Source of the DNA: Dryomyza anilis
Taxonomy: Eukaryota; Arthropoda; Insecta; Diptera; Dryomyzidae
NCBI GenBank assembly: GCA_951804985.1
Contig: OX638133.1
Span: 29,046,963 to 29,110,962 of the forward strand
Direction: 5' to 3'
Length of the DNA stretch: 64,000 nt
Shown here: positions 15,218 through 39,200 of the stretch, one piece after another
How the letters are laid out: every line of letters begins with the position of its first letter
How positions within the stretch are numbered: the first letter of the stretch is position 1
Notes under the pieces: model-generated
Database searches by the model: none
Told to the model about the DNA's origin: nothing
What the model saw: only the letters and a program-made list of their open reading frames with translations
Position numbers and translations under genes: made by a program

Positions 15218-18200
15218 TCATCAACAATTGCAACAGCAGCAGCAACAACAGCAGACTGCAGCAAGCATAAAAACAATAATTGGCGTCAACAGTTTAACGC
15301 AGCAACAGACGCCAGCAACAACAGAATTAGTCAATAAAACGGTGCGTTATATTTTAAAACTTGTGTTCTAGAAATTCTTTCTAAATTTTACTAATGAGGA
15401 TAACACGTCACTGATCGATTGTTGCAATCTATCTTTGAGCGCAACGATCTGCTTAAGGATGTTCGCATTTGCGAGGCATTTGTCTGAAGTTTTAGTTTAA
15501 ATAAATTTAATATTTTGAATATTTTCTTTATTTTAAATTATATATATTAATTAAACTCTCCTTTTTCACAACAGAATACGCAATCTCACTTAACGTCCGC
15601 TGCTGGTCTCTCAGCAACACAGTCCAGAAAGCGCAGCATATCCGCCACTTTAACAAATTCAACAAGAACAAATATTAAAGCAGTAGCAACAACACCGCCG
15701 CCACTACTTTCAACCGCTGCATCTACTTCAACAGCGGCTGCTGCAGCTGCTGCCGCCGCAGCTGCTGGTACGACGGCAACGGTGACGAGAAGCAATACGC
15801 CTGCGCACGATAACGTTGCCGCCGCAACCAGCAGCAGCAACAACAACAGCAACACTCTGCTGCCACAAGGTGCTGAAATTAAAATTCCTGCCGTTGGCGC
15901 CACACCGGTGGCCGTCTCAACACAACTGCCCGCCGCCGTTGTACAGCTGACACAGCAAGGTGAGCCCCCCAAAACGCATCAATTGTTTTTATTACAACAA
16001 CTGCTTGTATATTTCCTTTATCACATTTAATTTAATTTTTCGTTACTCTTACTACTTTTGTTGTACGTTTTCATTTACTCTCAACACTAACAAAATTTCA
16101 TTGTAAAATTCATAAAAGAAAGGCGTCAGAAAATAACACACTAACAGCCAAATCATGTATCTCCCGGCGAACGTTCGTCGTTCGAATCGTGTTCAGTCCC
16201 CTACGTCTAAAATCTGAATCATGTATCTCTTACGTTGCGTTTCGTGCGAGTTGTACGTTGAACGCTTGTTCTGTGCGTCGAACGTTTGAACTGTATTGTC
16301 AAGCAATTATATTAAAAAATATTTCAGAATGTTTCATTGAACATTTTTCGTTTGTACGCATTTTTGATAGTTGGCAATAATGCAATAAAATAATCAAAAT
16401 ATATGTCAACATATATATTTATTAATAATAATTGGATTTTTAAATAACCCATTTACGAAGCTAAATACTTACTGTGTATTTAAATAAAAAAATGCGAATG
16501 ATGAAAACAAGGAAGAGAACCACTTAACATGAGTCTTCCTCTGGCTTCCAAGATAAGTGCAATTGTGTTCAATATAATTTTAAAAATCGAAAAACATTGG
16601 GCTAAACCCTATCGTCAGCATCGGCAGGTTCGTTCGTGTGAACGATCTGTACATAATCAAAATTTCGCAGACAATTTTTGTCACTCGGTTTTAAAGCTAT
16701 GATTAATAGAATAGAGATACCTGATTTGGCCGTAAAACTCGAAAGTATTCCATAATAAAGCATATCATATATCTTACCAACATCAGCACCTCTGATTTAT
16801 GGACTAATATTAAAATTATTATGACCAATGCGAGTAGGCGAACTGTTCCAATCATTGACCTACTTGAACAGGTGGCGTATAATCAAACTTTTTTTTGTGT
16901 AAATTCAAATATCTTGAAAACATATAAAGTACTTTAAATAAGCTTTATTTAATATTCATATTTGCTCACAATCTCAAAAATCATCTCTGGTTAGATGCGT
17001 TTTTTTTTCAGTTTTTGAGTCAAGCAGTATATATTGAATTTAAAAACGAATATGCTTTATTTTACAGACACGTCTATCTTTTATTTTTCAATGACTCGTA
17101 ATCTACTTTACAAAAATTTAAAAATAATAAAATTAAATTCAATTTTTGATAATACTTTTTTTATAATATTTTTATTATTAATATTATTATTTGTATTATA
17201 CGATAAAACGATTTTCTTTTCTGCGTAAAATGAATTATGAACCACTGAAATTGATTTGAAATTTGTTTGGGATATAAGCGATATATAGATAGAGTTATAA
17301 ATTTTATACAGTTTAGAAGCTTCATAAATTTCATGACCAACATTTTAAATATTACAGCTAAAATGTTATGATTAATGCGCAGCAACAATTACACAGTGCG
17401 GCAAAATCACATCTTTTTTAATTGAACTCCAATTTTTTTTTATATTGTGCTTCTATGTGGTCTACCGAAAAAAGTGTAGTATAAACTTATACCCCTACAC
17501 GTCTGGGTTAGGCGCTATGTGGTCCTAAAGGGTTCAAAGGATAACCAATATAGTTCGTCATTTTGTAGCGAAATAGTTCATATTACGCTTTTGATGTCTA
17601 AGGAGCGATTATAGGGAACTTTCTAAGGATGATTTCCACTGACCATTTTAAGTTTGAATCTGACCGATTTACCACTATTTTTAATGGTTTTCTATGAACA
17701 ATTTCTTTAAGGAGTTATAACCAGTAGAAGAAGTCAGAAAACTATCATAATGTCTTTGGAGAAAATATTCGTCATTAAAATTGAGCTAGAGTCTTTAAAC
17801 AACTAAATTCTTCAACACGTACTATTTCTGAAATATAAGCCTACTAATAACGAATAATAGTTCTTTCTTCAATTTTGAATAAAGTCGTAGAAATATATTA
17901 TTACAATTATTTAAGTGCAGTAAAAATTGCATTAATTCTTAGTTAAAATTGTGATGCTGATATCGAAAATGAAATCGGTTTTTTTATTATTGGCTCTAGC
18001 TTTTGAGATATAGCCCATTTTTATGTTCACATGGTTATGCTAATGTAACTTATTTAATAGCTTAACCAATGACAAAAATGAAAATATCTTTTCTGCATTA
18101 GATACACAGAACCTTGTTCTATAATACACAAATTTTACTATATATACGTATATTGTATCAAGAGGAAATTTTCAGAACAAATATTTAAAAATAGCTTGTC

Positions 18201-21200
18201 GACGACACGAACATCAACAATAGACATTAAGGGTATTCATTACATTTTATATCGCCTTTTTGTAAACATTTTACACTATAAAGCATTTAATATTTACGAC
18301 GAAATGTAATTATTTCAATATAGTCAGTCGTGTGATTCGAGCTTATAAGTGTTTACTAAATATCTGCATGAATGAAACGCGTTTCAAGACATTTACTTGT
18401 TTATCGAATATTTTTTTTTGTCTTGTACTAAAAGAAATATATGCATACTCTTTGATCATGTATTGCACAAATTAATTCAAAACAAAAGAGAAGCAAAACA
18501 TTACTGCAGTGTACTCACAAAACTTTTGTATAGTTTGCAGTACAGCGAGTGCAGTACAAAGCGTACTTTTAAAATTGTGAATATTTTTGTTTTTACTACA
18601 TGTTTTGTTTTGAAGCAAACGAGTACTTTGCAGTGTTGGTTTTGTCTCTTAAGATGAGTCTATTACATTATCTTTCATTTACATGAATCAATCAATTTGT
18701 GTGCACTGAAGTAGTGTACACTGAATTAGTGTGCACTGAATTAGTGGGCACTGAAGTGGTGTACACTGAACTGGTGTACACTGAAGTAGTGTACACTGAA
18801 GTAGTGTACACTAAAGTAGTCTACACTGAAGTTGTGTACACTATAAAGTAGTCTACACTGAAGTTGTGTACACTAAATTAGTATGCACAGAAGTAGTGTG
18901 CACTGAAGTTGTGTACACTGAATTAGTATGCACTGAAGTAGTGTACACTGTAGTAGTGTGTACTAAAATAGTGTGCACTGAAGTAGTGTACACTGAATTA
19001 GTATGCACTGAAGTAGTGTACACTCAAGTAGTGTACACTGAAGTAGTGTACACTGAAGTAGTGTACACTGAAGCAGTGTACACTGAAGTAGTGTACACTG
19101 AAGTAGTGTACACTGAAGTAGTGTACACTGAAGTAGTGTACACTGAAGTAGTGTACACTGAAGTAGTGTACACTGAAGTAGTGTACACTGAAGTAGTGTA
19201 CACTGAAGTAGTGTACACTGAAGTAGTGTACACTGAAGTAGTGTACACTGAAGTAGTGTGCACTGAATTAGTATGCACAGAAGTAATGTGCACTGAAGTA
19301 GTGTGCATTTAAGTAGTCTGCACTTAAGTAGTGTACACTGCATTAGTATGCACTGAAGTAGTGTGAATTAAAGTAGTGTACACTGATGTAGTATGTGTGC
19401 ACTGAAGTAGTGTGTACTAAAATCGTGTGCACTTATATAGTGTACTGTAAGTGGTGACACAAATGCATTCATGCAGATGTTTATTGTTTATATTTATTTA
19501 TTTTCCATCAAAGTAAAAATATGAACTTGATTCCTTTTTGCACCAAAGTCTTCAGTTTCTCTGCTGTATTTTTTCCCTCAGAATAAAGTTGTCATTGAAA
19601 AATAATTTTATATTAGAGGTATATAATACGGGGAGGAACTTTTCGAAGTTTAGTAAAGCTAGTAATGAGCAACAACAAAAAAAGGCAAGACTCTTGTTAT
19701 TGATGTTTTTTCTGAAATATGAACAAGACCAACACTGCAAGAAATGAGCAAGAACAAGTATAGAAAAAGGTCTTGCTATTTTTGTCTTTTAAAGCAGCTT
19801 GAATATTGTTTTTTTTTTTTTCTTTTATAAACATTCAAATTTCAAAGTCTGTTTGCTAAATTCAAATTGTAGTATTAAATATTGTAATAAGAAAAATATT
19901 TGATTCTATGGTACAAAGCAGACTATTCGTTAATATTCATAATATTCATTACCGTTTGTTTAAAGATTTTTAACTCGTTCAAATTCCAAACAATTTTAGT
20001 AATTTATATTTTGTTTTACGCAGAATCTATTAACGTTTTACACTATATTATCAATAAAATTTAATACAGAAAATAAAATCATTAATTATATAGAAAACTT
20101 AAACAAAAATTTGTATTTTTTATTTTTCAAATATGTATTAAAAAAAAGAAATAAATTTTAAATTAGATTATTTTGTAACAATTATATACAGAAAATATAA
20201 ACATAAAATACAATCTTTTTTGACCATCATAATACAACATACACCAAAACAATTAAAATGTTCGTTTAAATTAAAATGCTACAAAATTTGATTCCTTTTT
20301 TTTTTTGTTGGTTTTCTTTGTTAATCAATTTTTGTTTGTATGTTTGTTCATTACACCATCACCAAATGTTTCATCACAATTATATCATTATTATTATTTA
20401 GGTCACATTCCCGGCAGACCTCTAGGAGGTCGCCACGGGATGGTGTTTGGTCAAATACCCGCTCCACCTGCAGTAGGAAACTCTTCTGTACCTTTGGTGC
20501 CAGGTGCTTATCTTTTGCAAGCAATAACAAATTCGCTTTTAAACATTTTATTAACTTTTAAGCTATTTTTTGTAAATTTGAATTCAATTTTATATTTTTT
20601 TTTATGTATTAGAAAAACAAAAAAAAATATTGGCAACAAAAGTCGACGTTGTAATAGTTTGATTATTTTTATTTTAATTAATTAGTAGTATATTTAATTA
20701 TTATTTAGTTATTTGCTTTGAATGACAGTGTTTATTTTTTTTTGTACCTAATTCGCAGCATCTTAAAAAGCACTTTCTTGTCTTTGAAATTGACCTGAAA
20801 ATCGTACATGGATGCCAGATTATATTATGCGGATGCAAAGTGTTTTTCTTGCTATACCGAAAAGCACGATAACTCTGCAAACAATAAAATTTTAATTTTT
20901 ATTAAGAATTTTTAATTAAATGTCTATTTTTTTATTATAAATTAATTAAAATAGCGAGTGTACTCTGTCTTCAATTGAATACTACAAGTGAAAACAATTT
21001 GTAAACTTGCTATAGTGATAATGCACTTTAAACTAACAAAAGCTTAAGTTAAACATAAACTTGGCCTTTGTATAAAATTGTAACAAAGTTTTAAACAATG
21101 TTTTCAAAACTCTCGGCATCTTAAAAAGCACTTTCCTGACCTCACACTTGGCTCGAAAATCGTAAATGGATGCTATAAGAAATACTTGTACGAATGCAAA

Positions 21201-24200
21201 GTGTTTGTTTTATGATAAACTAACACGATTATTTTGAACACAAAACCTAAAATGTTATATTAAACTTTATACGTCCTTCCGCAATTATTTTGAGTATTAT
21301 TTGATGTATTCTGTGATTGTTTTATACAAATGGACGTTAGATTGAAATCGCAATATTGCCAATAGAGTGTCTACAATTCAGAGACTTACTCTTTCTAGAT
21401 TATTGTGCACATTTGTTAAGGCAAAACCTTTAAACATCGAAATATAATATGCAAGGGCACTCTGTGTCACAATGATTACCACATGTGAAAACAATTTGTA
21501 ACCTTGCTATAGAAATTTTAAAACTTTTCCGCACTAGCGTTGCTTGCATTTATGGCTTTGCTATAGGAGAAAAGTTGAACAGTCCGAAATATTTTATAAA
21601 GTACTGCGTTGAATTTTAAATATTAACCATATTAAAGAGAAATAATTGAACTTGAATTTGCGCATCTTAAAAAGCACTTTCCTGACCTCACACTTGGCTC
21701 GAAAATCGTAAATGGATGCTATAAGAATTATTTGTACGAATGCAAAGTGTTTGTTTTATGATAAACTCACACGATTACTTTGAACACAAAACCTTATATA
21801 TTATATTCAACTTTTTACGTTCTTCCGCAATCATTTCGAGTATTATTTGATGTATTCTGTGATTGTTTTATACAAATGGACGTTATATTGAAACCGCAAT
21901 ATTGCCAATAGAGTGTCTACAATTCAGAGACTGACTCTTTCTAGATTATTGTGCACATTTTTTAAAGAAAAATTGAAATATATTATGCAAGGGCACTCTG
22001 TGTCACAATGATTGCCACATGTGAAAACAATTTGTAACCTTGCTATAAAAATTTTAAAACTTTTCCGCACATGCACTGTTTAATTCGATATCTTTGCTAT
22101 GGAAGAAAAGTTGTACAATAACAAATATTTTTTTAATACTAATTGTGGCATCTTAAAAAGCACTTTCTTGTCCACCCCTTTGGCCTGAAAATCGTACATG
22201 GATGCTAGAAAAATTATAGTCAGCTGCAAAGTACTTTCTGCGCATAGAAAAATCACGATTACGCTGAGTACAAAATGCTTTAAATAAATTTTATTATTTG
22301 TAATAATAAGAATAATCAAAAGTCAAAGCAAATATGTATTTTTTTAATAGTTTAGGTAAGAAAGTTTTTATATTAATTATTATTTTATTTAATTTAAAGT
22401 TTTTACTTAATTTTTTTTTAGACATTAGGGTATTATTTTCCAAATGGTTTAATTTCTGTGTTTTATTGCTATATTTTCTTCTAGTAATAATTGTTGCAAA
22501 TTTTTATATTAAAAGCGAACTATTTAAAATTTGTCTATATTTATATATTTTTGATAATATTAGCCTCTTTCCCCTTCCATCCCCGTAAAACGCTTTAATT
22601 GTTCTCTTAGTCATTGGCATGTATTTAATTCATACATTTTAAAACTTTTTATTATTTTTAAACAAATTACCTAAAGAATGCGAACAGCATGCTCTGTAAT
22701 AAATGTTTTACATATTTAAGTTTATGTAGTATAAATATATTTACTAAATTTTCAATTTTTATCCATTTCCCCATTAAAGGTGGCACGCCGCTTATACCCT
22801 GCGACAGCGCTACAAGCAGCAATAGCAGTTTGCGTCGTAATGGCAACAGCAGCGGCATCGAAACCGCCTCCGGCTTATCGCACACATCAGCGGCAACGAC
22901 GACGACGTCGACGGGTGCGCCGCCTAGCATTAGTATTGGCGCTGTGTCTACGCCACCGCCGCCACCACCACTTTTCTCACCAAACACCGCAGCAGCCGCT
23001 AGCAATACCGGCAGCAGTAACAGCAGTGTTAATGGCGGCAGCACAAGTTTTACAACAGCAGGTGCTGCTGCCTTCAACACCAACACTGCCGCCTCCAATA
23101 ATGTTCAGGAGTTTTCGCACAAGGCGAAGCAAGAAGTCTACGTGATGCAGCGTATTACCGAACTACAACGAGAGGGATTATGGACTGAAAAACGTTTGCC
23201 AAAGCTGCAGGAACCCAATCGGCCGAAGGCGCACTGGGACTATCTGCTCGAGGAGATGGTCTGGCTGGCGGCTGATTTTGCACAGGAACGCAAATGGAAA
23301 AAGAATGCCGCCAAGAAATGCGCTAAAATGGTGCAAAAGTATTTCCAGGACAAGGCGAATGCAGCGCAAAAGGCTGAAAAGGCACAGGAGCTGCATCTGA
23401 AGCGTATTGCTTCCTTTATTGCGAAGGAGGTGAAAATGTTTTGGACAAATGTTGAGAAATTGGTGGAGTACAAGCATCATACCAAATTGGAGGAGAAACG
23501 CAAGAAGGCGCTCGATCAGCACTTGAGTTTTATTGTCGATCAGACGGAGAAATTCTCGCAGCAGCTGGCGGAGGGAATGAACAAAAGTATTATGGATGCG
23601 ACGGCGGTGGGCGCGAGTGCGGTGACGAGCATTAATTCGAGTCGCATATCGTCGCCCAAGCGAACTCAGTCCAACAATATGTCTGATGGTAAATAGTGAT
23701 TTGTTTTTGAATTTATAAATTATTCATAATTTATTCTTTTGTTTAATTATTTATTGTTTTTTATTTATTTTTTAATATGTAATGATGTTAAATTGTCACT
23801 GACTGTTTGATTTCAACTATTTTTGTGGAAATCAAACTTTAGAAGATGTTCGCATTCGCGAGGCATTTGTCTGAACTGCATATATAATATAGAATTATTT
23901 GCTTTATTTTAAATGAACAAAATAAACTAATAAATTTTGTTTTAATTTCATTTAAAACAGATGAATTTCGTCCTGTATCTTCGTCGGAGGACGATGAGGA
24001 AACCATTGCCAAGGCTGAAGAAGAAGCTGCCGATGTCAATGCCGAGGTTGCCGCACTTGAAAAGGAATCTCAAATGGATTTGGATGATTTTCTCAATGAC
24101 CTACCAAAGGGCTACCTGGAGAATCGTGATAAAATTGTATTGGATGAAAAAATGGATGTAGGTGGCGACAACGATGATGGTAGCGGTGATACGGACGATG

Positions 24201-27200
24201 CAGAATTTGAGGCCAACGAGGCGAGTGAAGATGACGAAAATACGATAAGTCAGCAGGAAGCCGAAGAGAAAGATTTAGATCACAAAAAGGAGCTGGATGA
24301 ACTTGAGGTTGGTTTTACTTAAATTCATGATAAATTCAAAAAACTTTAATTAAATAGAAAATATATTTTTTTGTAATGATGATAAATTGTCACTGAACGG
24401 TTGATGTCGTCTATTTTTGAAGGCATCAATCTCTTATAGGATGTTCGCATTTGCGAGGCATTTGTCTGAACTATTTGCATAATCTGTACAATGTATACAT
24501 CTTATCTTTTTGAGTGAACGTTACTAAACATGATTTTTTTTATTACATTTTAGGCCGATAATGATTTGACTGTCGAACAGTTGATGGCAAAATATAAAGC
24601 GAAAGCAGCAGCGCCCTCCACATCTAAATCTTCGAAAATGGATGTCGACTCTGATGATGATGACGACGAACGGCAGACAGCAATCGATTCGGATGACGAC
24701 TCTAGCGCCAAAGACTCTGAAGACAACTCCGACGATGAGACGGCAGATGAAACTGTTGTTTCTTCCGATTCAGACGAACAGGACAATGAGGATGAAGGGC
24801 TCAAGACTTTGTTGGAAGATGTGAGTAAATCTTTATTTTATTTATTGAAGATAAATTTGGTTATGAATTTATTAAATATATTAAAAGCTTTTTTAATAAT
24901 ATCTACGTTTTTATTTCATTCTTTTCATGATTTCATTACTTCATGTTTTCATTACTTCATTTTTCATTCCTCAATTCATTATGTTATAAATTTATGAAAC
25001 TATAAATAACATTTATAATTAGTTTTTCAAATATTTCTGTAATGATGATAAATTGTCACTGAACGGTTGATGTCGTCTATTTTTGAGGACATCGATCTTT
25101 AACAGGATGTTCGCATTTGCGAGGCATTTGTCTGAACTATTGCATACAATATTAAATAATAATAATGCAAAATAATATAATTTTTATTAATAAAAATTAT
25201 TTTATGCTTCCCCAGAACGATGGCAACAACAAGGACGACATTATCAAAGATGCCGCTGCGCTTGCCGAGAGCATACAGCCCAAGGGCAACACACTCTCCT
25301 CCACCAATGTGGTGACACCTGTGCCATTTCTGCTCAAACACACATTGCGCGAATATCAACACATTGGACTCGACTGGTTGGTCACCATGCACGATCGTAA
25401 ATTGAACGGCATCCTCGCCGATGAAATGGGTCTGGGCAAAACAATACAAACAATTGCATTGTTGGCACACTTGGCCTGTGTCAAAGGCAACTGGGGACCA
25501 CATTTGATTGTGGTGCCATCATCGGTGATGCTTAACTGGGAGATGGAATTTAAAAAATGGTGTCCGGGCTTTAAGATTCTCACCTATTATGGTACGCAAA
25601 AGGAGCGCAAACTGAAACGTGTCGGCTGGACAAAACCAAATGCGTTTCATGTCTGCATTACGTCGTACAAGTTGGTTGTGCAGGATCAGCAGAGTTTTCG
25701 ACGTAAAAAATGGAAGTATCTCATACTGGACGAGGCGCAAAACATTAAAAACTTTAAGTCACAACGTTGGCAACTGCTGTTGAATTTCTCCACCGAACGG
25801 TAAGTGAATTATTGTAATATTTCACACTGCGCTTTTCTATAATATGTGTGTGTGTAAATAAATAATTAGTAATGCGTCAAAATCAGTGCTCATGCGTATG
25901 CTTTGGCTATTAGTATGAGAACTACGCTATGACGCAGAAATTAACTCGAGATAATGTCACTCACCTCAAATTAAGAACAATAATTTTTTTGTTTTATTGT
26001 TTGTGACATTGTTTTGATACAAAAATTACACTTAAATAAAGGGAATGTTATAGCTTTTGAACAAGTATCGATCGGTGCATCATCTAATGAATTCGAATAC
26101 CATGTTCTACATTAGTTTAGCAGTACTTGATACTTTAGTTCTTTATATCTTTAGTATTTTTTTTTTTTTTTTTAGTATGTTGTAGTTTAGTTCTTCAGTA
26201 CTTCGCACTTTAGTTCTTCAGTGCTTTAGTTCTTGAGTACTTTGTACTTTAGTTCTTGAGTACTTTAAGTATTTTGTACATTAGTTCATCAGTACTATGT
26301 TCTTAGTACTTTGTACATTAGTTCTTCAGTACATTGTACTTTAGTTCTTCGGTACTTTGTACATTAGTTCATCAGTACTATGTTCTTTAGTTCTTCAGTA
26401 TTTTGTACTTTAGTTCTTCGGTTCTTTGTACTTTAGTTCCTCAGTACTTTGTACTTTAGTTCTTCATTACGTTGCACATTTGTATTTACACAGTACAGAA
26501 AAACTGTATTTGCACTTCAATATTTTGTTTTTGAGTTCAACTATAGGTTCTCTATCTTAAAAAGCACTTTCCTGACCTTACACTTGGCTCGAAAATCGTA
26601 AATGGATGCTATAAGAATTTTTTGTACGAATGCAAAGTGTTTGTTTTATGATAAACTCACACGATTATTTTGAACACAAAACCTAAAATGTTATATTCAA
26701 CTTTATACGTCCTTCCGCAATTATTTTGAGTATTATTTGATGTATTCTGTGATTGTTTTAAACAAATGGACGTTAGATTGAAATCGCAATATTGCCAATA
26801 GAGTGTCTACCATCAAGAGACTGACTCTTTCTAGATTATTGCGCACATTTCTTAAAGAAACCTTTTGTAAATTAAAAAAGAATCTCCAAAGCCACACCGT
26901 GTCACGTTAAAAACCGCAAGTTATCGGACTAGCGTCGCTTTCTATCTTTGCGAAAGGTGTAAAAGATTTTTACTAAACAATAGGTTATAGATTATTAATT
27001 ATAATAGTCATTGTTATCCATATTATCAATAGAACTAAAATTTTCATTTGCGCATCTTAAAAAGCACTTTCCTGACCTTACACTTGGCTCGAAAATCGTA
27101 AATGGATGCTATACAAACTATTTATTCGAATGCAAAGTGTTTGTTTTATGATAAACTCACACGATTACTTTGAATACAAAATTTAAACATCTGTAAAACT

Positions 27201-30200
27201 TTTTAGACGTCTTTCCAATCTTCACCAATACTTTTAAATGTGTTTTTTGAATGTTTTATAAAAAAAGAACGTCAGATTGAAACTGTGACAATATTGCCAA
27301 TAGAGTGTCTACAATCCAGAGACTAACTCTTTCTAGATTATTGTGTACATTTCTGAAAGAAAACCCTCTTTTTAAATCGATATAGAAAATGCAAGGGCAC
27401 TCTGTGTCACAATGATTACCACATGTGAAAACAATTTGTAACCTTGCTATAGAAATTTAAAAACTTTTCCGCACTAGCGTTGCTTGCATTTATGGCTTTG
27501 CTATAGGAGAAAAGTTGAACACTCAAAAATATTTTATAAAGTACTGCGTTGAATTTTAAATATTAACCATATTAAAGGGAACTAATTGAACTTGAATTTA
27601 AGCATCTTAAAAAGCACTTTCCTGACCTCACACTTGGCTCGAAAATCGTAAATGGATGCTATAAGAATTATTTGTACGAATGCAAAGTGTTTGTTTTATG
27701 ATAAACTCACACGATTACTTTGAACACAAAACCTAAAATATTATATTCAACTTTTTATGTCCTTCCGCAATTATTTTGAGTATTATTTGATGTATTCTGT
27801 GATTGTTTTATACAAATGGACGTCAGAATAAAATCGCAATATTGCCAATAGAGTGTCTACAATTCAGAGACTGACTCTTTCTAGATTATTGTGAACATTT
27901 ATGAAAGAAACCTTTTATAAATTAAAATAAATTATGCATGATGATTTTGAACTTTTGTTTTTTGTACTTTTGTATAATGTACTTTTTTCTTTTGTAGTTT
28001 TATATTTTAGTACTTTGTACTTTATACTCTGTGCATTACAAGAATACTGAGACAATTCTTTTGGTGATTCGATTATGTTTAAGCCCATGTATCACAGAAA
28101 TGACTTCTTTGAAGTGATGCTCTTTTGTACTGTATTTTAATATTTATATTCTTTAAACTGTATTTATATAAAAGCTGCACCAAAATCAGTGATTATTCGC
28201 TTGCAAAACTAGAATAATAACTACGCTATGGTGCACAAAGTAACTCACTATACTGTCACTCACACAACAAGAACATTAAATCATCTCTTTTAATGTTTGT
28301 GGCATTGTAATGAGACAATGAAACTGTTTTACTTTAAACCATTTACATTATTTTAAAGACTGTCAAAAAATCTTTTATATATTTCATAATTTTTAATATA
28401 ATTTTATGTTTGTTTAATTTTCAGTCGTTTACTGCTCACCGGCACACCGCTGCAAAATGATTTAATGGAATTGTGGTCGCTGATGCACTTTCTCATGCCT
28501 TATGTATTCTCCTCACATCGCGAGTTTAAGGAGTGGTTTTCGAATCCAATGACTGGCATGATTGAGGGCAACATGGAGTACAATGAGTCGCTTATCAATC
28601 GGCTACACAAGGTCTGTACATTGTACGTAATGTAGAAACTTTCTTCTTTTTTTCTTTTATTATTTGTTTGTACGTATATCTATTGACTTTTTATTATGCA
28701 TCTTAAAAAGCACTTTCCTGATCTCACACTTGACTGGAAAATCGTAAATGGATGCTATACGAAAACTAAAATTGTACGAATGCAAAGTGTTTGTTTTATG
28801 ATAAACTCACACGATTACTTTGAACACAAAACCTAAAATGTTATATTCAACTTTTTACTACGTCCTTCCGCAATCATTTCGATAACTATTTGATGTATTC
28901 TGTGATTGTTTTATAAAAAAGGACGTTAGATTAACATCCACAATATTGCCAATAGAGTGTCTACAATTCAGAGACTGACTCTTTCTAGATTATTGTGTAC
29001 ATTTGTTAAGGCAAAACCTTTAAACATCGAAATATAATATGCAAGGGCACTCTGTGTCACAATGATTACCACATGTGAAAACAATTTGTAACCTTGCTAT
29101 AAAAATGTTAACACTTTTCCGCACTAGTGTTGCTTGCTTTTATAGCTTTACTAAAGGAGAAAAGTTTTACACGAAAACTATTTTATAGATTAGTGCTTTT
29201 AATTTTAATTATTAAACATATTATTGAACTTGAATTTGCGCATCTTAAAAAGCACTTTCCTGACCTCACACTTGGCTCGAAAATCGTAAATGGATGCTAT
29301 ATAAAAACTAAAATTATACGAATGCAAAGTGTTTGTTTTATGATAAACTCACACGATTACTTTGAATACAAAATTTCAGAAAAGTTATTATCATTTTCAG
29401 ACGTCTTTCCGGTGCTTTTTGAATTCTTTTCAATGTTTTCTCAAATGTTTTATAAAAAAAAGAACGTCAGATCGAAACTGTGACAATATTACCACATCCA
29501 GAGACTGTCTTCAATTCAGAGACTGTCTTTTTCTTAGATTATTGTGCACATTTGTTAAATCGAAACCTTTTTAAAAGGATATACAATATGCAAGGGCACT
29601 CTGTGTCACATTGAACTCCTTAAGTAGAAACAATTTGTAACCTTGCTATAGAAATTTTAAAACTATTCAGCACTAGCAATGCTTATCACATATCTTTGTT
29701 TTATGAAAAGTTTTACAATACTAAATATTTTCTAAATTCTAATTATGGCATCTTAAAAAGCACTTTCTTGACCACACTTTTGGCCTGAAAATCGTACATG
29801 GATGCTAGAAAAAAATATAGGCAACTGCAAAGTGCTTTCTGCGCGTAGAAAATCACGATACTGTTGGCTACAATTTTTTTAAATTTTATATATAATTTGA
29901 ATTATACAATATGTTACTATATAGTTTTTCTATTACTAGTTATAATGCATGACATTTAAATTATTATAAATTAATTCACTCAAATTAAACATTGTTTGTA
30001 TTTTATAAATTGCAGGTCATACGTCCATTCCTATTGCGTCGGCTGAAGAAAGAGGTGGAAAAGCAAATGCCCAAGAAATACGAACATGTTGTCATGTGTC
30101 GTCTGTCCAATCGTCAGCGATATCTGTACGACGACTTTATGAGTCGCGCAAAGTGAGTTTTGTAAAAACCGCCATTAAATTTTTAATTTCTTTTTATATA

Positions 30201-33200
30201 TTTAAGCAATTTTAATAAAATTTAAATATTTTTTTTCTTCTCTCGCACTTTAGAACAAAGGAAACTTTACAGACTGGTAATCTGTTGAGTGTCATCAATG
30301 TGCTGATGCAATTGCGGAAGGTGTGCAATCATCCAAATATGTTTGAGGTGCGACCAACCATATCGCCATTCCAAATGGAAGCAATTTCCTATCATACCGC
30401 GTATTTAGTCTGTGATCTAATGGAGTACGATCCATTTGTGGTGAGTTTCTTTTAGTTTTTCTTTTAGTTTTGCTATTTCTACTTTCATTTAAAACATTTT
30501 TAAACTGATGATAAAATGTCACTGAATGGTTTCTTAATTCTATCTTTGAGTTAATTGACCTTTAATGGATGTTCGCTTATTGCGAGGCATTTGTCTGATT
30601 AAATGTTTGAACATTTAAATGTAGAACTATTTAGTTTTTGTTTTTCGATAACTTTGAGTAGTTATTGGTTTTCTTTAATATATACTAACTAAATCTAATT
30701 TTTTCCCTCTTTTTACTATTTTTGTCTTCTATATCTATTTAACTATTTATTTATTTTTCATTTATTTGTTTATTATATATTATTATGTGTCAAACAATTA
30801 CATTTGTTAATTCAGAGTTCGGTTAACTCCATAAATGAATATTCACAATGCTTTCACAGACACGATTAAACTTGATGAATAATAATACAATTAACACTTT
30901 TTGCAATCCAATATTTTAAATATAATGTTCGTATTAATCAAATCAAGTATCTTTTTCAAGCAAGTTTAAACCTTGCTAGTTCAAAAGTTTACTATACAAA
31001 AAAATGTATGTCACATCCTTAAAATATATCTGAAAGTTTCTGCTAAAAGTTACAGTATTTCTGAATGTTACAGGGACAACGGCAACGTATGACACATTTT
31101 TATTCTGCGCTTAACCAAAATCGATTGTTTCCGTTTTAAAGTTACAACTAATGCTTTTCTAAGTTTTTCTTTTCATAAATATTTCAAACACTTTGTATTT
31201 AATTTTACCAAAACACTATTACTACCTCCACTTGAGGTTATTTTATTTGTTTAACTCCCTTAATACAACCAGAAAAATGGTATCAACATCTTTTTTGTAT
31301 TATTCAAGAAAATATCTACTTGTATTAAACATGTATTATATTTATTTCATACGTTTTATTTATCCTTATATATTATATAAAACTATTCAGAATGAAAAAT
31401 AAAAGAATTTTATGTTGACGTTTACAAGCTTGATGCTAAACTGAGACCACCGATCCTACCGACTTCGCCACTAATCCTTTCCTAAGTTTTTCTTTTCATA
31501 AATATTTCAAACACTTTGTATTAATTTTACTGAAACACTATTACTACCTCCACTTGAGGTTGTTTTTTTTTGTTTAACTCCCTTAATACAACCAGAAAAA
31601 TGGTATCAACATCTTTTTTGTATTATTCAAGAAAATATCTACTTGTATTAAACATGTATTACATTTATTTCATACGTTTTATTTATCCTTATATATTATA
31701 TAAAACTATTCAGAATGAAAAATAAAAGAATTTTATGTTGACGTTTACAAGCTTGATGCTAAACTGAGACCACCGATCCTACCGACTTCGCCACTAATCC
31801 TTTCCTAAGTTTTTCTTTTCATAAATATTTCAAACACTTTGTATTAATTTTACTAAAACACTAGTACTACCTCCACTTGAGGTTGTTTTTTTGTTTAACT
31901 GCCTTAATACAACCAGAAAGATGGTATACAACATCTTTTTTGTATTATTCAAGAAAATATCTACTTGTATTAAACATGTATTACATGTATTTAATACGTT
32001 TTATTTACTTATATATTATATAAAACTATTCAGAATGAAAAATAAAAGAATTTTATGTTGACGTTTACAAGCTTGATGCTAAACTGAGACCGCCGATCCT
32101 ACCGACTGCGCCACTTTTGTTGTATCAAATAAAAACTATTTTTCGTATTTCTTTTGACTGCTCTGTATATTTATCAATTCCAGACTGGCTTAAAAATTAA
32201 TTTAAAAGTAGCTTAAATAATTTTCTTATTCTATATTAGTGACATATATTGCCTACAAGCAAACGATTGAAAGTGCATGATGGTGATTTGCAATTGTGCA
32301 CTTACTTTTTTTATTGTGTAATTATATTTTATTATTTTAAATGGTTCATTAAACCATTGCAACATATGACCCACCCACACAGTTCTCGATTTGCATTAAA
32401 AGTTTAGTACAATTGGAGAACTTTTATTATTGTTTAAATAGTATTGGGTGTTTTTAGGAGGGACTGTACTATAACTATACATCTCAATTTTTACTAGTTT
32501 TGACACACCTTACAATGGAATCGCACACATTGTGGTGAATATCTATTTTCCCTACTCTGATTTGTAATGTTTAGTTTAGTATTTTGGGTAGGGTGACCAG
32601 CATTACTACTCACTAGATTTACCTGATTGCTTAAATTAGAACACTTTGTGATTTAAATGAGAGAACACTTTATTTGTACTACCTTTACATGAGGTGACTT
32701 TTAGCTACACTCTTTTACATTAGTTGCCAGTTTCACTTAAATTCTATTTTCACTATGTTCTAGTAAGTTTTTAATTTATGTAGAGCAACATCCAAAATTG
32801 TGTGAATAGTGAATATCCATAAGAAAAAGAAAAATATGTCAGTATTATACACAACAAAAAGACGCATTTTTATTCTGCGCTCAACCAAAATCGATTTTTT
32901 CCTTTTTAGAGTTACAACTAATACTAAATCCTACTTAAATTTTTGTTTTCAGATTTATTTGAAAAACTTTTTATTTAATTTTACTCAAAAACACTTTAAT
33001 TACCTCCACTTGAGGTGGTTACTCTTTTTGAACTCACTTTATACAACCAGAAAGATGATATTTAACATCTATTTTGTAAATTTCAAGTAAATGTCCACTT
33101 GTATTAAACATGTAACATGTACGTTTTTTTTTTTTTTTTTAGTTAATCGAGTTTTAGCTAATACAGCTAGCTTGCACTTTCAAAGCATAAATTTATTTCA

Positions 33201-36200
33201 GTTGACATTTGAGTTGACTTTTTGACAGATTTACATTAAAATGTGTGCAATATTATAATTTGTTCTACTATATGGATGATAGACATATAGATATCAATTT
33301 CAATATCCATTTTAGAGGGAGCAACGTGCATCAAGGCAACAGTTTCATCCTTACACCATTGTTGAATAAATTATTTTTCTCAATCTACAACACTTCTACT
33401 TTATTTCTAAAATTTATTTCAAAAGTTGGTTTTTCCTTATATCCTTGTGTATTAATTGTAAATTTATCAGTTTTAAATAAATTGAAAACATTTAAATCTT
33501 CATGTTTAATGCATTTACTGCAACTAGCAGGTTTGACATCCTCCATCACATATAACATTTTTGAATATTTTCTTTAACATTTAACACTTACAAGTCAAGT
33601 ACATTTGTCAAGTTTAAAAATAAATTATGTCCAGTTAACACAACATTAAACAATTAAATACAAAGCATTGTCAAGAATTTTGTTTTTTTTTTTTTATTTT
33701 ATTAGCTTTCAAGCGTTTAATATATTTTTATTTAATAATATATAATGTTCACATATTGTCCACTTGGGACACGGGTGACTTCACTTGTTGTTGCTGCTAG
33801 CTGGAGCTGCTTTCGATGTTGAAACAATTTAAAGCTGCTTGTCTTTTCAAGACAATGTAAAAGTTCAATAAAAACTCGTGCTTGTTTTATGTTCAAGTTC
33901 AAACGTTATAATATTAATTTTAGGTTTAAATTTTAAGTAATTCTACGTCATTCTGCTGCAGATGTTAAAAGTGAAATGTCCATCGCACCACGAGGCAAAT
34001 GTCACCTTTTACGTTTGTTCTTTCGCTCATCTATGCGAGTGTATGCGTGCACCTGTCATGCGTTGGAGACTTTTGGTGCAGAGTTGCCAACTGCTCTAAC
34101 GCCTTATGTTGTTATAATGCGGCGATCACATGATGATATTTTTACGTTTACGTTCGCGGCGCGAACACATATTATATCAAAAACCGCAGAAGACAATTTA
34201 TTATTTTCCTTTTTTAATATTACCAAGAAAAACCGCAGAGGATAATTTATTATTTTCCCAAGCACTGAAAAATTGACCTTGTGATTAACACAGTGTGACA
34301 CACATACACTACAACATAAAAAGTATGCGTAATATATTTGACGATTAAGTCAGTGACAGTTTATCTTTGGAGTCCTTACTATTTAATTAAGATTATATCA
34401 CTAATAAGTACTCTTAATATAACATATAAATAAATCTGAATATTACATTTTTCCATATGTATAAATATGTCAAACTAAAGTATGAATTAGTTGACTTTTA
34501 AGTGTATATGGAATAGCTCCTTTTGCAAAATATTAGCGTGTTCTTTGAGCGATAAAATTATCATCTTTTAATTATATGTACGTGAAGATGTAAAATGTTG
34601 TTGCTTCATTATGCTACAATAGTCACAATTTTGATGATTTGTAAAACTTCTACATCCATATTTATAGTGTGGAGTCCTTAATATTTAATTAAGATTATAT
34701 CACTAATAAGTACTCTTAATATACCATATAAATATATCTGAATATTACATTTTACCATATGTATAAATATGTCAAACTAAAATATGATTTAGTTGACTTG
34801 TAAGTGTATATGGAATAGCTCCTTTTACAAAATATTAGCGTGTTCTTTGAGCGATAAAATTGTCATTTTTTAATTATATGTACGTAAAGATGTAAAATGT
34901 TGTTGCTTCATTATGCTACAATAGTCACAATTTTGATGATTTGTAAAACTTCTATATCCATATTTATAGTGTGGAGTCCGTAATATTTAATTAACATTAT
35001 ACCACTAATAAGTACTCTTAATATAACATATAAATAAATCTGAATATTACATTTTTCCATATGTACAAATATGTCAAACTAAAATATGATTTAGTTGACT
35101 TGTAAGTGTATATGGAATAGCTCCTTTTACCAAATATTAGCGTGTTCTTTGAGCGATTTTAATTATATGTACGTGAAGATGTAAAATGTTGTTGCTTCAT
35201 TATGCTACAAAAGTGACAATTTTGATGATTTGTAAAACTTCTACATCCATATTTATAGTGTAGCTACACTATTAATTAAACATGTTATTGATGTCCAATG
35301 GTTGTATTTCCTCCTTCCATAACTCTCACATGTTGTTTTATCATTCCGTCATATTTCATTATATCACATTATCATTTCAGACCTTTTCCCAACAAAATTA
35401 AACGACCTTTTTTGACAATTAAACATAGTGTCTTCAGGGTCGATTTTTGTCTTTTTTTGTGAATTTCGTGTTTCTATTCGTTGAAATGCTGAATTATTAT
35501 TAAGATATTTGTGCCTAAACCTATATTAAAAACATAGCAATTTCCAACTGATGCCAACTGTTTTCATTCCTGTTAAATACTTGCTCAAGTTATTTCTTAT
35601 ATATTACATTTTTTATTACAGAGACATATATGTTCCAAGTTTAATTCAGGTCCAATTTACAACTGCTCTAATTCTTCAATTTGTAAAATTTAAAAAAACA
35701 AATAATATTTTTAATAAAGCTCCAATAGCTGTGTACCACCACTCTGTATCACGTGAAGACGAAACGTAATAGTAGTATTTGTAATGTTCGATGAAAGTTT
35801 ATTATTTATTAATATTTATTTAATTTAATTTTCATGCCATCTATAAAAAATTTAAATAACTTTGAACACAATTTAACTAACACACTCCAGATAAAACTGT
35901 ATACCACAAATCGAAGCACACATTGCATATTAATCAATCTTATGTTATCGTCGGTCGCACCCACCTAAAATTGATAATAACACGGGAAGATGTTCAATAC
36001 GTAGTCTATAAATAATTGAATGGACATCGACTTGTAAATTAAATACATTTTAGGCTAGAGGCATGCGTCACGAGTCTTAAAGTTTATGCTTTGTGCGAAG
36101 ATTCCATATATAATTAAATCATACTTATAAAATAATAAATTATTCAATTAAACAAGTGTTTCAGAGTTCCGTATCTGTCTGCAATTAATATAACAATGAT

Positions 36201-39200
36201 GCGCGTATTTTTGGTTTGGATCTTTTAATTAATATTATTAATTATTTAATTAAACTAACAAAAAACATTATTATTTATTGGCTGTTCGGACACTATTACT
36301 CACGCGATGCACTATTACACTTTCGCAAAGTTTCGACACATAATGTTATCTACTCTAGAGAATTTGTGCTGTTTTCATCCAAATTATATATATTCCTTCA
36401 TATTTTACACAAAATATTATGAGGCAAATTTATTGTCTATTCGGACACTATTACTCACGCGATGCATTATTACACTTTATGAAAGATTCCACACAAAATG
36501 TTATATTAATCGACTTTTGACTAATGCAGCTACACTCGACAATTAGTGCTGTTGTATTTATCCATTGTAATGTTAGAATTATGGTGGATTTAACAACCTC
36601 TGCTTAGCATGACTACAATGTCTTGGTCAACATTGTTACTCTTACAGTATGCTTCCTATATATGTTCCTCCATATTTTCCACAAAATATGATGAGGCCTA
36701 TAATCTATAATCATAATCCTATAATCAAATGCCTATAATTTTAGTTTTTTTTTTTTTAAATTTAGTTATTTAAACCTTTCAAGGCGCCAATTAATCCATA
36801 TGAAGTACAATTTGGTGTCAGTTGGATTTATGTTGTCGTCATTAATTGCATTTTTCTACCATATTAGTAATCGTGAGGTTGTATCTATCAATATTATCCT
36901 TTCCGCACTAAATATGATGCAATTAAACGCATATAATCTAATTTTCTTTTTTTTTTCTTTTTATTATTTAATTCTTTAAACCCTTCAGGACTTCTATTAA
37001 TCCTTATGAAGTACATGTTGACTGTATTTCTTAAAAAATCCTTTTATTGTGTTTTCCCGAAAATGTTTTGGGCAAACCATAATTAAAAATATATATATAT
37101 ATATATATTAGTGGTCTTTTGTGACCTTATATCAATAACTATCGTATGTTGAATAATGAAAGACACGATTGTCAGGTTATATTAAAATATTATTATTTAT
37201 TAAAATAAATACACTATCCTTTTAAATTAAAAAGTTATTTAATTAAAACTAATACGCGAATATTAAAGTTTTTATTATTTAATGAAACGTTGTAGAAAGT
37301 ATCTATAAAAAAAAACTCCTTTTTTATTCCAAATGTCATTAGAAAATGTATCTACAAGGTTTATGACCTTTTTGTTGACTATTAACTCATACAGCTTTTG
37401 GTCAATCCTCTTTGATTAATTTCTAAAACAAAAAATAAATTAACTTTTTCTATCGGAAGTTTGATGTTGACTATTTCTTTATTAAGAAAAAGCTATATTT
37501 ATACCAAAAAATAATAAATATAAAATTTAAGTTGTCATCGTCTCGTAAATAAGTTCATCCTCTATAGAATTCAGAGGAAATATCTATAAAAAAAATCCTT
37601 TATTATTCAAAATGTCATTAGAAAATGTATATAAAAGGTTTATGACCTTTTGGTTGACTATTAACTCATACAGCTTTTGGTCAATCCTCTTTGATTAATT
37701 TCTAAAAAATAAATATATAAACTTTTTCGATCGGAAGTTTGATGTTGACTATTTCTTTATTAAGAAATTGTTATATTTATACCTAAAAATAATAAATATA
37801 AAATTTAAGTTGTCATCGGCTCGTAAATAAATTTATCCTCTATAGAATCCATTGGAAATATCTATAAAAAAAACTTCTTTTTTATTCCAAATATCATTAG
37901 AAAATGTATCTAAAATGTTTATGAATTTTTGCCTTTTTGTTGACTATTAACTCATACAGCTTTTGGTCAATCCTATTTAAATAATTTCTATAACAAAAAT
38001 AAATAAACTATTTCTTTATTAAGAAAAACTTATATTTATACCTAAAAATAATAAATATAAAATTTAAGTTGTCATCGTCTCGTAAATAAGTTTATCCTCT
38101 ATAGAATCCATTGGAAATATCTATAAAAAAAACTCCTTTTTTATTCCAAATGTCATTAGAAAATGTATCTAAAAGGTTTATGAATTTTTGCCTTTTTGTT
38201 GACTATTAACTCATACAGCTTTTGGTCAATCCTCTTTGATTAATTTCTAAAACAAAAAATAAATAAACTTTTTCGATCGGAAGTTTGATGTTGACTATTT
38301 CTTTATTAAGAAAAACTTATATTTATACCTAAAAATAATAAATATAAAATTTAAGTTGTCATCGTCTCGTAAATAAGTTTATCCTCTATAGAATCCATTG
38401 GAAATATCTATAAAAAAAACTCCTTTTTTATTCCAAATGTCATTAGAAAATGTATCTAAAAGGTTTATGAATTTTTTCCTTTTTGTTGACTATTAACTCA
38501 TACAGCTTTTGGTCAATCCTCTTTGATTAATTTCTAAAACAAAAAATAAATAAACTTTTTCGATCGGAAGTTTGATGTTTACTATTTCTTTATTAAGAAA
38601 AACTTATATTTATACCTAAAAATAATAAATATAAATTTAAGTTGTCATCGTCTCGTAAATAAGTTCATCCTCTATAAAATCCAGAGGATATATCTATAAA
38701 AAAAAACTCCTTTATTATTCCAAATGTCATTAGTAAATGTATATAAAAGGTTTATGAACTTTTGGTTGACTATTAACTCATACAGCTTTTGGTCAATCCT
38801 ATTTAAATAATTTCTATAACAAAAATAAATAAACTTTTTCGATCTGAGGCTTGATGTTGACTATTTCTTTATTAAGAAATTGTTATATTTATACCTAAAA
38901 ATAATAAATATAAAATTTAGGTTATCATCGTTTCGTAAGTAAGTTTATCCTCTATAGAATCCATAGGAAATATCTATAAAAAAAACTCCTGTTTATTCCA
39001 AATGTCATAAGAAAATGTATCTAAAAGGGTTATGAATTTTCGCCTTTTAGTTGACTATTAACTCATACAGCTTTTGGTCAATCCTATTAACTACCATTAC
39101 ACTTGTAAAAGTTGAGGCAAACGGAAGGCGGCTGCATTTAAAATAAATATATTTTGTGCGGCCGCTTTTCTTTTATTACTTCCTTTATGTCAATGCAAAA

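Follow-up and report, generated by a model that had tools for sequence, protein, structure and literature searches.

The window analysed here, a 64-kb stretch of the Dryomyza anilis genome, contains dom, a chromatin-remodeller gene of the SRCAP/SWR1 type. Three introns inside this gene, at positions 20504-22779 (array intron 1), 25800-28424 (array intron 2) and 28612-30015 (array intron 3) of the window, carry arrays of H/ACA-like modules, all on the sense (+) strand. GT..AG ends were found in all three introns. The exons bordering introns 2 and 3 splice into a single open SNF2-type frame, and the exon upstream of intron 2 (25219-25800) matched SRCAP at 2.5e-104. The joined exons flanking intron 1 are open in one frame.

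In total, 25 intact modules of four types (ten A, seven B, six C and two D) and one apparently decayed C were observed in these introns. Models built from the copies recovered the ten A, seven B and six C modules at E < 1e-18 when both strands of the 64 kb were searched, and no further A, B or C copy was found on either strand at E < 0.009. Two C-model matches at 35174 (E 0.26) and 35732 (E 0.28) were too weak and were taken as chance. A previous sequence-only reading of this DNA described three modules in 23 copies, with 8, 8 and 7 copies in the three introns. The repeat models, Rfam, the GT..AG ends and the exon joins bore out an array of H/ACA-like modules across the three dom introns, and the types A, B and C and the seven copies of intron 3 were recovered. 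The total was an undercount, since a divergent ninth module of intron 1, C1 (20953-21088), and the two copies of the fourth type D in intron 2 had been missed, which gives 7 to 9 intact modules per intron. The repeating A-B-C cassette was found as five complete trimers (A2B1C2, A3B2C3, A6B4C5, A8B6C6 and A9B7C7), but the remaining groups are partial. The spacers between most modules are 21-76 nt, and array units from different introns are as much as 96% alike.

The modules are given below in their order, with bit scores against the Rfam families RF00546 for A, RF00545 for C and RF02714 for D; B1 to B6 were defined by repeat alignment, fold and ACA, and B7 by alignment and target scan. Intron 1 contains A1 (20757-20886; 44.7), C1 (42.1), A2 (21115-21245; 42.8), B1 (21268-21414), C2 (21450-21584; 67.5), A3 (21661-21791; 40.5), B2 (21814-21960), C3 (21986-22120; 65.6) and A4 (22147-22275; 45.8). 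Intron 2 contains D1 (25873-26022; 77.4, E 3.1e-13), A5 (26551-26681; 27.3, E 0.25), B3 (26704-26850), the apparently decayed C (about 26885-26985), A6 (27051-27181; 42.6), B4 (27204-27352), C5 (27390-27524; 70.1), A7 (27601-27731; 43.6), B5 (27754-27900) and D2 (28176-28318; 107.1, E 4.4e-20). Intron 3 contains A8 (28697-28831; 33.9), B6 (28857-29004), C6 (29040-29174; 68.1), A9 (29239-29373; 35.4), B7 (29399-29553), C7 (29589-29720; 51.3) and A10 (29747-29875; 42.2). The decayed C, which had also been noted in the sequence-only reading, is suggested by its place within the unit and a few common words, but an intact C aligned to it locally with a score of 68, no better than shuffles (70 for the best of 200).

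Since the copies match their own models by construction, Rfam served as the independent evidence. Both the module repeats and the Rfam matches exceeded chance, and the Rfam matches of the array were on one strand only. The likeness of C, A and D to their families is a match of sequence and structure over the model length. Module C is RF00545 (psi18S-841), with five of the six copies reaching the 50-bit cut-off (51.3-70.1 bits) and C1 falling below it. The ten A copies scored 27.3-45.8 bits against RF00546 (psi28S-3316), and the two D copies scored as given above against RF02714 (psi28S-3378). A and D differ from these families in that all their scores are under the curated cut-offs (65 and 136 bits, respectively), and A is likely a relative of RF00546 rather than a filed member. 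No Rfam family was found for B when one of the seven copies was tried at E up to 10, the best snoRNA being SNORA20 with an E of 4.8. Genome-wide, there were five RF00545 matches and seven B-model matches, all inside the window; in this genome B was found at dom only. The window also holds seven C/D snoRNA copies in other introns, as detected by Rfam. Other tandem intron repeats are present in dom, e.g. at 31-39 kb; these were considered as more snoRNAs and rejected, as a search up to E 0.5 matched them to none of the H/ACA families.

Unconstrained and consensus folds showed two hairpins, a hinge and a tail in the modules, although A5, A9 and C1 deviate in places. A5 has a damaged 5' basal stem and its 5'-half minimum-energy fold is unlike that of other A modules, as is the 3'-half fold of A9. 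The stability of single-sequence folds was modest for A to C, with z between -0.2 and -2.8 in 15 of 23 copies. An ACA three bases from the 3' end, as previously proposed, was confirmed in 25 of 25 copies, a count that is partly circular because the ACA helped to define the ends. The hinge box was present in its strict ANANNA form in A (10/10), D (2/2) and C (5/6, absent from C1), but in only two of seven B copies, and the motif arises easily in A-rich hinges.

Covariation strongly backs the A structure and moderately that of C. For A, seven pairs changed on both sides, which was reached by 1 of 500 shuffles, while the number of paired cells and the score were reached by none of 500. For C, five pairs changed on both sides (13/500) and the score was reached by 6 of 500. 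These copies are related, and kinship can inflate such values. A further measure, counting additional pair types, was no better than shuffles for either module (A, 407/500; C, 130/500). The covariance check that the sequence-only reading had proposed thus yielded paired-site support for A and C, and B showed no excess over shuffles (93/500), its copies varying too little for a verdict.

The pockets of the modules were compared with the rRNA of the same species, of which the 28S 3' sites were read from a single fragment that lies apart from the rDNA array. The best site of the A 5' hairpin pocket was 28S AGCGACG[U]CGCUUUUUGAU in all ten copies, and that of the B 3' hairpin pocket was 28S GACUCUAG[U]CUGGCAGUGU in six of seven, the match being lost in the divergent B7, whose pocket is altered. 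The C 5' hairpin pocket gave 18S GAACAAA[UU]AGAGUGC in all six copies, and either of the two U's is a candidate target. The sites of C and A agree with the kind of target in their family names. Individual pocket fits are modest, since shuffled pockets matched as well in 43-45 of 300 cases for A, 9 for B, 16 for C and 110 for C1. A second guide was not found in the other hairpins, as none of 23 pockets was better than 73 of 300 shuffles on the own rRNA. In A, B and C alike, the hairpin with the rRNA match is the better conserved one (variable columns 16/58 vs 34/56 in A, 19/65 vs 35/69 in B and 18/57 vs 42/55 in C).

Protist rRNA from six contaminant contigs was used as a distant, stand-in target. 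The A site ranked top jointly in four distant LSUs, which none of 200 shuffles achieved, and it was not the best site on a piece of D. melanogaster 28S. For B (1/200) and C (8/200), the sites that came out best conserved in this test differed from their own-rRNA sites. The 841-like site of C ranked first in two of four distant SSUs, second in one and outside the top two in one. The alternative B target from the distant rRNA, 28S GAUCUUGG (1/200), was rejected because the own-rRNA site was better (30.6 vs 25.0 for the next).

Taken together, we consider it very probable that the arrays are tandem intron-encoded box H/ACA snoRNAs, whose pockets pair with rRNA for pseudouridylation and whose copies have grown by block duplication. 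The H/ACA identity is supported by Rfam, the folds, the covariation of A and C and the own-rRNA pocket matches, but not by covariation in B. The array modules probably guide pseudouridine onto rRNA. Transcribed with the dom pre-mRNA and released from it, each module, with its two hairpins, internal pockets, hinge and ACA tail, would assemble into an RNP with a dyskerin-type enzyme (Nop60B in Drosophila). In each module one pocket is nearly constant and can base-pair with the rRNA to either side of a uridine, which the enzyme would convert into pseudouridine; the second hairpin drifts. The arrays probably grew as blocks were duplicated, both inside single dom introns and from one to another, and the many copies would raise the dosage.

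It is quite possible, if not favored, that working snoRNAs are confined to a few copies. The others would then be passive duplicates that arose through tandem or cross-intron duplication, or through conversion, and are drifting. The decayed C, the damaged A5, the divergent B7 and C1 and the close likeness of units across introns are in line with this, whereas the paired stem changes in A and the near-constancy of one hairpin's pocket (A 10/10, B 6/7, C 5/6) while the remainder varies speak against it. The short spacers speak for another explanation, in which the arrays would not yield separate guides but act as long multi-hairpin RNAs, for example by soaking up H/ACA proteins as a sponge or by regulating dom splicing. 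In its favor, too, no strong stems that could serve as cutting sites were found in five folded spacers (-2.7 to -3.2 kcal/mol); however, every module carries an ACA and a pocket of its own, and C and its Rfam relatives are filed as single 145-position RNAs, so we regard this explanation as highly improbable. That the arrays are plain satellite-like intron repeats with a chance likeness to H/ACA RNAs hardly seems credible in view of the single-strand Rfam matches, the A and C covariation and the rRNA pocket matches, even though dom does have other tandem intron repeats devoid of Rfam signal.

Within the reading of the arrays as H/ACA snoRNAs, a more specific proposal is that the dom introns are polycistronic sources that give off most of the 25 intact modules, and that B joined an older A-C array as a new recruit and subsequently spread with it between introns. 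We hold this to be speculative and rather doubtful. Release of most modules would need cuts between modules besides end trimming, and the dom introns offer a natural test of how multiple H/ACA RNAs leave one intron. With so many copies, a single genome is enough to tell the retained hairpin from the drifting one. Should B prove to guide the 28S site proposed for it, a family absent from Rfam would be added to the known guides.

A literature search, with most subscription papers outside its coverage, found no description of the D. anilis dom array. The host and the kind of array are not new, since a 2026 preprint (PMC13228274, section 5) places dom among the well-characterized snoRNA clusters of D. 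melanogaster. This weakens the earlier view that such an array is unusual in a chromatin-remodeller gene. Going by this listing, the two loci share the host gene and an intronic snoRNA cluster, and with the present array a snoRNA host locus known from Drosophila is seen in a further fly. What is new is the number of intact modules per intron, the predicted guide B and the block duplication between dom introns. Duplicated small RNAs in the introns of one protein gene are likewise found in the Drosophila mfl/Nop60B cluster (PMC1821038). The mfl/Nop60B cluster has one RNA gene per intron, whereas dom of D. anilis has 7 to 9 intact modules in each array intron. The dom array is therefore a large but ordinary case of a known kind.

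The window (G000:C4:29046963-29110962) belongs to a genome of 656.6 Mb. The protein encoded by the exon at 25219-25800 matched human SRCAP (2.5e-104) and also yeast SWR1, an HSA domain was found in the preceding exon, and the exons flanking introns 2 and 3 formed a single open SNF2-type reading frame once they were joined. Together these features identify the host as the dom orthologue on the plus strand, and they bear out the sequence-only reading on both points.

H/ACA modules of four types (A to D, copies numbered along the window) were arrayed on the plus strand of three introns. The order was A1 C1 A2 B1 C2 A3 B2 C3 A4 in intron 1 (20504-22779), D1 A5 B3 (C) A6 B4 C5 A7 B5 D2 in intron 2 (25800-28424), and A8 B6 C6 A9 B7 C7 A10 in intron 3 (28612-30015), where (C) is an apparently decayed copy at about 26885-26985. 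The array of 23 modules reported earlier was thus found, and its count was revised: ten A, seven B, six C and the apparently decayed C make 24, and two D modules bring the number to 26. The 25 intact modules occupy 53, 48 and 69% of introns 1, 2 and 3, respectively. A minisatellite with a 23-nt period (TTTAGTTCTTCAGTACTTTGTAC-like) lies between D1 and A5 at 26151-26506.

Five C copies passed the Rfam cut-offs for psi18S-841 (RF00545). At relaxed thresholds, C1 matched the same family with 42.1 bits, the ten A copies matched psi28S-3316 (RF00546) with 27.3-45.8 bits against a cut-off of 65 (A5 only at an E value of 0.25), and the two D copies matched psi28S-3378 (RF02714) with 77.4 and 107.1 bits against a cut-off of 136. 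No Rfam family was found for B in the region at E values up to 5, and the top snoRNA match of a single B copy was SNORA20 (E 4.8). In the whole genome, a DNA search with one B copy gave at least seven matches, those listed being the seven of the window, and RF00545 gave at least five, all listed ones inside the window; both counts are lower bounds because only the best candidates are scored.

Unconstrained folds gave two pocketed hairpins for most copies, the deviating ones being the decayed C, A5 (in the 5' half), and A9 and C1 (each in the 3' half). Stability relative to shuffles was modest for A to C (z -0.2 to -2.8, given for 15 of 23 copies) and strong for D (z -4.5 and -5.3). In A, seven pairs had changed on both sides (reached by 1 of 500 shuffles), 96.4% of cells were paired (0 of 500) and the covariation score was matched by 0 of 500, with no excess of further pair types (407 of 500). 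C had five two-sided pairs (13 of 500), with 4 of 500 for paired cells, 6 of 500 for the score and 130 of 500 for further pair types. B had three two-sided pairs (93 of 500), and none of its measures was significant. Since kinship among copies may inflate these counts, we hold the grading to A as supported and C as moderately so.

A and C had the less variable hairpin on the 5' side (16/58 vs 34/56 variable columns in A, 18/57 vs 42/55 in C); in B it was the 3' hairpin (19/65 vs 35/69). The pockets of each copy, with borders that we chose from the folds, were scanned against the 18S, the 5.8S and the 5' part of the 28S of this species, and against a 28S 3' fragment represented by one genomic match outside the rDNA array. 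All ten A pockets preferred 28S AGCGACG[U]CGCUUUUUGAU (score 26.8, equalled by 43-45 of 300 shuffled pockets). Six of seven B pockets preferred 28S GACUCUAG[U]CUGGCAGUGU with 14 pairs (score 30.6, next site 25.0; 9 of 300), the match being lost in B7. All six C pockets preferred 18S 834/835 (30.6, 16 of 300; for C1 26.8, 110 of 300), which we take to be 840/841 of D. melanogaster 18S, in agreement with the family name psi18S-841. The more variable hairpins contributed another 23 pockets, of which none beat 73 of 300 shuffles on the same rRNA. In four distant LSUs combined, the A site ranked top (0 of 200 shuffles). Counting against the proposed targets, the top conserved sites of C (8 of 200) and B (1 of 200) in the test on distant rRNA were other places, and the A site was not favoured on a piece taken as D. 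melanogaster 28S. In the 28S 3' fragment the best sites of A (599) and D2 (661) are 62 nt apart, exactly 3378 minus 3316; the D2 match itself was not significant (366 of 400), and the best site of D1 was a different one (103 of 400).

A7-B5 of intron 2 and A3-B2 of intron 1 are 96.0% alike over 299 bases. A4 grouped with A10 (support 94/95), B4 with B7 (99/96) and C3 with C7 (86/90); on these grounds the 3' ends of the arrays in introns 1 and 3 appear, with moderate support, to be copies of one block. The A1-C1 unit has no B, suggesting, without proving, that an A-C array came first and that B was added to it later.

Other repeats were also observed. Seven copies of the C/D snoRNA RF00529 (Me28S-Am2589), each 106-107 nt and above cut-off, lie on the plus strand at 15388, 23776, 24370, 25036, 30499, 60707 and 62534. 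The stretches 60705-60930 and 62532-62760 hold two of them, 96% alike and with similar exon starts after both, which looks like an intron-plus-exon duplication within the gene. A repeat of 15-nt period, with at least 37 copies that overlap, lies at 18574-19400. In a long non-coding stretch, the tandem repeats at 31136-33145, 34368-35271 and 37302-39146, whose units measure about 323, 302 and 280 nt, matched no H/ACA family at E values up to 0.5. In the rDNA (G000:C6, L019-L024), 28S was broken after CCCTATCTACT in all six copies inspected of eight found, the known insertion place of R1-type elements.

The modules would be transcribed along with dom, the inner ones released from the introns, assembled into RNPs and then engaged in modification. 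A more novel and less likely reading has most of the modules set free, for which cuts between them would be needed. Drosophila H/ACA genes, according to Huang in 2005, reportedly often break the one-RNA-per-intron rule. In Drosophila, 95% of expressed snoRNAs are described as intronic and dom is named among the well-characterized snoRNA clusters (PMC13228274), so that, going by that listing, the host and the kind of cluster were already known. The D box of RF00529 lies 80-86 nt upstream of the 3' splice site in the three copies measured, near the approximately 70 nt described in PMC1821038. The same source describes one RNA per intron as widely observed in animals, a rule from which the dom array departs.
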